Virus record (IMG/VR): IMGVR_UViG_3300025840_000328
Coordinates: 1-20,852 of that record
Direction: 5' to 3' (one strand)
Source of the DNA: a virus
DNA length: 20,852 nucleotides
Shown: positions 19,701-20,852 of the stretch, piece by piece
Layout of the letters: each line of letters starts with the position of its first letter
How positions within the stretch are numbered: the first letter of the stretch is position 1
The notes under the pieces: model-generated
Told to the model about the DNA's origin: nothing
The model's input: only the letters and a program-made list of their open reading frames with translations
The model's database searches: none
Program-made: the position numbers and the translations under genes

Positions 19701-20852
19701 ACAGGGGCAACGGGAGTTTCAGTCACCCGCCTAGTGACTATTGCGCTCGAGCAACCGATTGAGCCGATCGATGAATCGGAAGAGGTCATAGATATTTCTC
19801 TTGTTGGACCCAAGGGCGACACAGGCATGGATGGACCGAGTGGCCCTTCCGGCGCGACAGGCCCAACGGGTGCAACGGGTGCAACGGGACCTTGTTGTTT
19901 GGAGTGGATCAACGGTGGATGGAATCCATTCAACGAGTACGTGACCCACAATGGCATCGAGCACAATGGCGAGACGTTTAGAGCGATTGACACATCAACC
20001 AACAAGGAACCGCGAGTTGCTCCCGATTGGGAAAATTACTGGGAGATTCTAGCCGAGAAAGGATCGCCAGGGAACACGGGCGCAAGCGGGATCGGCGACA
20101 CAGGCCCGAGCGGACCGACAGGCCCGAGCGGCGCGAGCGGCCCGACAGGCCCGACTGGTTCGTCAGGTGCAGACGGTCGAGGGTTTACACCTCGAGGCGA
20201 ATGGTCGGGGTTAACTGATTACGAGGTCGACGACATCGTTACGAGAAATGGCGATGTGTATCGATCAGCCGTTGCTAGTACCAACAAGCCGCCGGAATTG
20301 CATGTTCCGGCGTATTGGGAAAAATGGGTGGAAAGTGGGGAATCAATCACGGGCGAAACAGGCCCGACTGGCCCGAGCGGCCCGACTGGCCCGAGCGGCG
20401 CAAGTGGTCCGACTGGTCCGACTGGTCCGACTGGTCCAACGGGTCCGACTGGCCCAACGGGTCCGAGCGGCCCGACTGGTTCGTCAGGTGTAGACGGTCG
20501 AGGGTTCACGCCTCGAGGTGAATGGTCAGGCGCCACGCAATATTATACCGACGACGTTGTCACCTACTCAGGTGACGTCTACCTAGCGCTCGCCGATTCG
20601 CTAAACGATATTCCACCATCCACGCCAGCATCATGGGATGATTGGGTGACAAGCGGTGATTCCGGCGTGACGGGTCCGACGGGTCCGACGGGTCCGACTG
20701 GTCCGACTGGTCCGACTGGTCCGACTGGTCCAACGGGTCCGACTGGCCCAACGGGTCCGAGCGGCCCGACTGGTTCGTCAGGTGCAGACGGTCGAGGGTT
20801 CACTCCTCGAGGTGAGTGGGCTGGCACGACGCAATATTACACCGACGACATC
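16770..20852 (+). CDS. Tail hub-like protein fused to collagen and carbohydrate-binding repeats (partial)
   Basis: One uninterrupted frame of 1361 codons runs off the window end, starting three bases after the tape measure stop. Residues 1-780 look like a tail hub or distal baseplate protein: beta-rich with T-V-Y-Q-Q-G-W, a W-W-I-D-H-L-P-W-L segment, and [14 protein letters not shown] (about 569-582). The place right after the tape measure fits. From residue 781 it becomes collagen-like Gly-X-Y, largely Gly-Pro-Thr. An insert of about 30 residues ([12 protein letters not shown], about 983-1012) breaks it. From residue 1044 small aromatic modules alternate with collagen. It is probably the receptor-binding tip of the tail, and collagen implies trimers. 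The first 780 residues are less certain than the repeats. Confidence 0.8.
19110..19712 (+). repeat. Collagen-like segment 1 (Gly-X-Y, about 201 residues)
   Basis: In-frame Gly-X-Y triplets occupy most of this segment, with GPT the commonest, plus GAT, GLT and GPS. There are short imperfections: GGAT after GSP near the start, and GVGSQ in the middle. The DNA is itself a minisatellite: the unit [11 protein letters not shown] begins at 19284, 19416, 19479, 19551 and 19614, with most spacings 63 or 72 bases (21 or 24 residues). Such repeats readily change length by recombination. GPT-rich collagens are known in Bacillus spore-surface (BclA-type) and phage proteins. Confidence 0.9.
19806..19898 (+). 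repeat. Collagen-like segment 2 ending in Gly-Pro-Cys-Cys
   Basis: A short Gly-X-Y stretch ([31 protein letters not shown]). The two Cys are residues 1042 and 1043, at 19893-19898, right before the first small aromatic module. The Gly-Pro-Cys-Cys ending matches the cystine knot that locks the three chains of type III collagen. It is one of few Cys sites in the protein. Confidence 0.8.
19899..20060 (+). other. Module 1, carbohydrate-binding-like (CBM5/12 type)
   Basis: About 54 residues (1044-1097) with [17 protein letters not shown][11 protein letters not shown] and the closing W-E-N-Y-W-E-I-L. The pattern of an early Trp, Y-x-x-x-D/N-x-V, G-x-x-Y/F-x-A and a final Trp pair is that of small chitin-binding type modules of CBM family 5/12. 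It is the most divergent copy. Confidence 0.5.
20184..20351 (+). other. Module 2, carbohydrate-binding-like (CBM5/12 type)
   Basis: Residues from 1139 begin [19 protein letters not shown], continue N-G-D-V-Y-R-S-A-V, and end Y-W-E-K-W-V-E-S-G. The W...Y..DD.V...G..Y.A...W spacing is that of CBM5/12-type modules, which use exposed aromatic residues to hold polysaccharide. It is preceded by collagen-like segment 3 (20061-20183), which ends G-A-D-G-R-G. Confidence 0.6.
20433..20822 (+). repeat. 294-bp direct repeat in the hub gene
   Basis: The DNA from 20433 (end of segment 4 and start of module 3) is repeated almost exactly from 20727 (end of segment 5 and start of module 4), an offset of 294 bases or 98 codons. 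The shared run is long, with few substitutions. This is the mark of a recent in-frame duplication of a collagen-module unit. Confidence 0.7.
20505..20663 (+). other. Module 3, carbohydrate-binding-like (CBM5/12 type)
   Basis: Residues from 1246 begin [19 protein letters not shown], continue Y-S-G-D-V-Y-L-A-L, and end S-W-D-D-W-V-T-S-G. It is closely related to module 2 and more so to the start of module 4. It follows collagen-like segment 4 (20352-20504) and is followed by segment 5 (20664-20798), both nearly pure Gly-Pro-Thr/Gly-Pro-Ser. Confidence 0.65.
20799..20852 (+). other. Module 4, carbohydrate-binding-like, cut by the window end
   Basis: Only the first 18 residues are present ([18 protein letters not shown]), nearly identical to module 3. 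More copies or a different tip domain may lie beyond the window. Confidence 0.6.

Follow-up and report, generated by a model that had tools for sequence, protein, structure and literature searches.

Among the closest known counterparts of the locus analysed here are the Tal proteins of the streptococcal phages DT1, TP-778L, SW13 and 9851 and of the lactococcal phages C41431 and BK5-T. These follow the same plan, in that a gp27-like hub is joined to collagen-like linkers alternating with three-stranded domains of about 60 residues and with carbohydrate-binding modules (CBMs), and they have been modelled as trimers (PMC9437275, PMC9692632). In the prophage-encoded EPclA/B proteins of E. coli O157:H7 a collagen domain lies within a side-tail protein, and its trimeric triple helix has been shown experimentally; its published abstract describes domains for trimerisation and for coiled coils instead of CBM5/12 beads (PMC3368898). 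In cyanophage A-1(L) a joint domain of the short tail fibre (residues 111-215) contacts the baseplate wedges (PMC10966104), and the distal CBM of the neck fibre showed no host binding. For the CBM5/12 domains themselves the chitin-binding domain of ChiA1 serves as the reference: its core consists of five aromatic residues, and the surface residue Trp687 makes the stacking contact with the sugar (PMC3701571). The ligand contact of CBM5 domains is a Y-W or W-W pair, and the related CBM73 domain binds chitin through a different aromatic layout (PMC8449059).

We analysed a stretch of 20,852 nucleotides (hereafter the window), which spans the complete virus record IMGVR_UViG_3300025840_000328. Its last ORF encodes 1361 residues, is still open where the contig ends and falls into three parts: about 780 residues without collagen, a Gly-X-Y run, and an alternation of Gly-X-Y spacers with short modules, here termed beads. 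We propose, with a probability of roughly 0.6, that this protein is a trimeric gp27-type hub of the Tal type carrying a collagen stalk, that its beads of CBM5/12 fold are modules of this stalk, and that a C-terminal binding tip lies beyond the contig. The features of the region are as follows (E-values for beads are from the leave-out profile described below, unless marked Pfam).

14673-16766: tape-measure-like ORF directly upstream of the hub gene (Pfam TMP_3, E 3e-6, below cut-off)
16770-20852, plus strand: putative hub-fused collagen and bead tail protein, 1361 aa, truncated at its 3' end where the contig stops, adjoining the tape measure gene
16770-18449, plus strand: predicted tail hub domain of the gp27/Mu gp44/VgrG type, about aa 1-560 (AF2 and Foldseek)
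19110-19721, plus strand: long Gly-X-Y (collagen-like) run, aa 781-984, few phase shifts
19806-19895, plus strand: Gly-X-Y spacer ahead of bead 1, aa 1013-1042, 30 aa
19887-19898, plus strand: Gly-Pro-Cys-Cys at the collagen end ahead of bead 1, aa 1040-1043, from sequence
19899-20072, plus strand: bead 1 (divergent), aa 1044-1101; E 7e-12 (aa 1046-1101)
20094-20183, plus strand: strict Gly-X-Y spacer between beads 1 and 2, aa 1109-1138, 30 aa
20181-20348, plus strand: bead 2, aa 1138-1193; E 3e-15 (aa 1138-1191); Pfam CBM_5_12 E 4e-5
20352-20504, plus strand: strict Gly-X-Y spacer between beads 2 and 3, aa 1195-1245, 51 aa
20405-20490 and 20699-20784, plus strand: exact direct repeat of 86 bp in spacer DNA, the likely reason for the contig break
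20502-20666, plus strand: bead 3, aa 1245-1299; E 5e-16; Pfam CBM_5_12 E 2e-4
20655-20798, plus strand: strict Gly-X-Y spacer between beads 3 and 4, aa 1296-1343, 48 aa
20796-20852, plus strand: first 19 residues of bead 4, aa 1343-1361, cut at the contig end; E 1e-4

The bead array and its precedents

The collagen-like nature of the ORF is evident from the Pfam Collagen model (PF01391; E 2.8e-39, 133 bits on the whole protein). A profile of 43 modules from other viral contigs, built with the window excluded and giving E-values for one sequence, recovered three complete modules of about 55 residues and the start of a fourth, well beyond what chance would give. This bears out the alternation of collagen and modules described in the original prediction, as do the spacers of 30, 51 and 48 residues between the modules (it had given about 30-51) and the start GFTPRGEW of modules 2, 3 and 4, in which it had noted FTPRGEW. 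Its placement of the array at the tail tip is not borne out, as the contig ends inside module 4. The extension past position 20852 that it had proposed yielded nothing further, the record coinciding exactly with the window and the last 33 bases having no match in any other viral contig. The contig stops in module 4 with the exact 86-bp repeat just upstream, so the assembly probably broke off in the repeat. Full modules share 46-59% of their DNA (59% between modules 2 and 3, 46-49% for module 1), and modules 3 and 4 are 85% identical across 60 shared bases. Such diverged modules alongside an exactly repeated stretch of spacer fit tandem duplication with slippage in the spacers, and beads and spacers may have multiplied by unequal exchange in this repeat-rich DNA. 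The divergence among the three complete beads of the window could reflect ligand diversification.

Searches with a consensus bead retrieved 222 GenBank phage records and 373 IMG/VR stretches. At least one module-collagen-module alternation was seen in 25 of the ORFs examined and at least two in four, namely those of Tunturi_5 (seven), the contig L069 (seven), the contig L093 (four) and the window (three), with L069 and the window both cut at contig ends. In L069 (1-7454) 368 strict Gly-X-Y triplets precede eight beads that alternate with collagen. Tunturi_5 is a cultured jumbo phage (308.7 kb) of Tunturiibacter; its gp29 (XOB77472.1, PP885688) has the same bead family alternating with collagen that is rich in proline and threonine, as in the window, and ends in a non-bead domain. 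The likeness rests on the bead and collagen part, and the paper describing the Tunturi viruses makes no mention of tail fibres or collagen. The statement that no described phage has this arrangement is thus refuted, since it is present in GenBank (Tunturi_5 gp29) and in IMG/VR and its plan has been published for Tal; the combination of a gp27-type hub, collagen and CBM5/12 beads was not found described in the literature searched. The beads of the BK5-T Tal protein were considered as members of the CBM5/12 bead family and rejected, as the bead profile gives no match to them.

The hub and its relatives

The N-terminal part has no assignment in family libraries and no Pfam match, and its profile gives no match by sequence in the PDB. 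An AF2 model of the monomer, computed with 23 relatives, has a pLDDT mostly of 70-92 over about residues 1-560 and low confidence beyond. Foldseek searches with this model recovered eCIS hubs (E 4e-12), Mu gp44 (1wru, E 7e-7) and T4 gp27 (1wth, E 1e-3), and the matches to Mu gp44, gp27, eCIS and VgrG hubs all have a probability of 1.0. Given this predicted gp27/VgrG-type N-terminus, the protein is, on the model, a hub-fused adhesin of the Tal type; its gene directly follows the tape measure, and collagen and small domains lie behind the hub. The module containing the hub gene also encodes a portal of the Mu type and a protease resembling that of Mu, and the Tal phages differ from the window phage in hosts and in genome plan. 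As hubs with this fold, of the gp27/gp44 type, are trimers, the chains are probably trimeric by analogy, which supports the trimerisation that the original prediction had expected from the collagen, and we infer a trimeric stalk as well. On the hub trimer three chains would start in register and then close up into a collagen triple helix, and the beads would interrupt this stalk, with three small folded domains at every bead position.

Relatives of the hub were detected in five IMG/VR contigs (about 50% identity) and in Akkermansia phages (about 21-23%); among GenBank phages the hub matches only Akkermansia phage DTMo-2021a (21%) and nothing closer. Genome contigs scanned with the hub sequence alone gave no match, and a search with the hub alignment gave 18 loci, at 24-32% identity, in the Verrucomicrobiota, Kiritimatiellae and Lentisphaerae and in related groups. 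From these sequence relationships the host probably belongs in or near the Verrucomicrobiota. The distant relatives stop after the hub, without collagen; among the hub relatives collagen is present only in the window and in the close relatives L006, L007, L008 and L010. The window protein ties the common bead-and-collagen fibre plan to a hub of the gp27 type, in a phage lineage whose kin include prophages of Verrucomicrobiota and relatives. In Akkermansia-type phages and prophages a conserved ORF of 248-251 residues, starting with MIRIYLFTY, comes next after the hub gene (L188 7701-8447, L189 10067-10816, L191 10109-10858, L192 8679-9428, L194 10287-11042, L011 8101-8856); its copy in L011 has no Pfam match and is glycosyltransferase-like by eye.

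Fold, ligand residues and position of the beads

In the HMM search that the original prediction had suggested, Pfam CBM_5_12 (PF02839) matches the whole protein above its cut-off (30.6 against 26.2 bits, E 3.4e-7). Beads 2 and 3 singly score below it (23.9 and 21.8 bits), and bead 1 alone has no Pfam match. An AF2 model of bead 3 (46 sequences) has a pLDDT of 90.8 and strands at residues 5-9, 20-24, 27-31 and 47-51. Foldseek with this bead places the cyanophage A-1(L) tail fibre gp33 (8KEC/8KE9) first (E 1e-3, TMq 0.77), followed by chitinase binding domains, with E-values that are modest (1e-3 to 1e-1) owing to the very small size of the domain. When 16 phage modules are combined into a profile, it matches the ChiA1 chitin-binding domain (1ed7) with an E-value of 1.9e-8, as well as several chitin deacetylases. 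Taken together, these sequence and model comparisons make kinship of the beads with CBM5/12 sound, and the chitin-binding type of fold proposed earlier is borne out.

The same cannot be said of the ligand residues. We aligned 46 phage modules, including the three complete ones of the window, against 1ED7. The five core aromatics W656, Y662, Y670, Y675 and W696 are common to the phage beads and ChiA1 and are retained in nearly all 46 rows, with W/Y exchange at 656; bead 2 has R at the position of Y670, and bead 1 has H at Y670 and F at Y675. In contrast to ChiA1, the phage beads have an extra N-terminal strand (residues 5-9 of the AF2 model) and are without Trp687 and its loop: an equivalent of Trp687 is absent in all 46 modules and this region is shorter. 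The second hairpin is followed by two positions (ChiA1 680-681) at which its location leads us to place the CBM5 ligand pair; they are occupied by A, S, N, G, D or T, one His being the sole aromatic there among the 46 modules. Loss of the known ligand aromatics with retention of the buried core weakens, at the sequence level, the case for a sugar grip by the beads, which may nonetheless have another binding face or use a weak ligand with avidity.

The position of the beads in other fibres points the same way. Of 63 distinct complete ORFs, 62 continue for at least 60 non-collagen residues past the last bead, and across all 77 ORFs with a complete C-terminus the median is 227. In the A-1(L) short tail fibre the phage module profile matches residues 138-183. 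That this bead-like segment lies inside the joint domain, with the beads of relatives being internal, favours a role in the stalk or its joints; gp33 differs from the window protein in having a single module within the joint domain of a separate fibre, with the hub not fused. The beads of the A-1(L) neck fibre were set aside as counterparts, being in different proteins, although the paper on the A-1(L) tail lends support to fibres built as bead chains. Absence of Trp687 throughout the alignment and the further domain after the last bead in almost all complete ORFs lead us to read the beads as stalk modules rather than sugar grippers, and this appears to be their best reading. We infer that they act as spacers, and they may also serve as stalk joints and register keepers. 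As the beads are internal in relatives, the window protein is predicted to continue to a distal domain outside the contig, which by analogy would be the receptor-binding tip, C-terminal to the beads.

The main alternative is that proposed originally, a multivalent adhesin in which every bead binds polysaccharide, be it from capsule, mucus or particles, and avidity is raised by trimerisation of the collagen. Its structural half stands, with a CBM5/12 fold that scores above the Pfam cut-off and is related by profile and Foldseek to chitinase binding domains; bead repetition would indeed yield avidity, and CBM73 provides an instance of a relative that binds chitin with another aromatic layout. 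Its functional half, glycan binding by the beads, is weakened by the missing Trp687, the single His at the 680-681 positions, the mid-stalk location of beads and the structural joint that houses the solved phage relative, and we regard this reading as possible but unlikely. With fold and core kept, ligand residues lost and the modules lying within a stalk, this is a clear case in which the label "carbohydrate-binding module" in a phage fibre should not count as evidence of sugar binding.

That the bead is a generic beta-hairpin domain only resembling CBM5/12, with no kinship to chitin-binding modules, would agree with a fold of just 55 residues, with the modest Foldseek values and with the lactococcal BK5-T beads, which show an analogous plan without sequence match, but the 1ed7 and chitin deacetylase profile matches and the core aromatics held in common with ChiA1 (PMC3701571) render it improbable. 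Still less credible is an origin of the repeats by assembly artefact, or by neutral slippage in which bead number has no function: the exact 86-bp repeat, the contig end inside module 4 and the unmatched terminal bases are what it would lead one to expect, but the modules have diverged in DNA, no stop interrupts the reading frame, and the alternation recurs in independent contigs as well as in a cultured phage.

Stalk exchange and the Gly-Pro-Cys-Cys motif

Two of the close hub relatives, L006 and L008, share 98.4% DNA identity along the 10.6 kb that lead up to the stalk. Beyond this point (L006 10662-15230, L008 10636-15200) they encode unrelated stalks, of the GSSGTSG and GKTGRTG types respectively, and the downstream genes also differ; DNA homology resumes about 4.5 kb later. 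This clearly amounts to the exchange of a cassette between two phages that are otherwise near-identical, and such natural swaps could be used for testing the function of phage collagen. For the hub-fused protein proposed here, the stalk would likewise be an exchangeable cassette. The genes after the stalk in L006 and L008 include, by Pfam, Glycos_transf_1, Glyco_transf_9, Capsule_synth, Methyltransf_21 and a sub-threshold Methyltransf_23. For glycosyltransferases near phage fibres, published proposals invoke changes to host LPS or cell wall or protection of DNA, not glycosylation of collagen.

The collagen of the window ends in Gly-Pro-Cys-Cys ahead of bead 1, and the L008 stalk has GPCCTGPTG within its collagen. 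A scan of viral contigs for GPTGPCC gave 82-83 matches, of which about 14 lie in genuine Gly-X-Y contexts, while the control motif GPTGPFF gave none in a Gly-X-Y context among the 120 matches listed (of a total of at least 120). GPCC lies at breaks of viral collagen tracts in the window, L008, L105, L118, L127, L129, L133, L139, L140, L145, L163 and L176. Type III collagen has a disulphide staple, and by analogy it is a reasonable guess that GPCC forms an interchain staple of this kind. A rather doubtful possibility is that in this hub lineage stalk and beads form a swappable cassette inherited with the adjacent glycosyltransferase and methyltransferase genes, by which the phage would glycosylate its own collagen, staple it through GPCC and alter its adhesion by switching the stalk type as a unit between Pro/Thr, Ser/Thr and Lys/Arg collagen.

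Two other ORFs of the window may be recorded. One, between terminase and portal (3298-4740), has GIGTTSP repeats typical of fibre proteins and ends in a BclA C-terminal-like domain (PF18573, E 5e-7, below cut-off). The other (8162-8776) is methyltransferase-like and lies within the head genes (PF13489, E 4e-4, below cut-off); an ORF of a similar kind is present in the stalk cassette of L006 (PF13489, E 7e-4).
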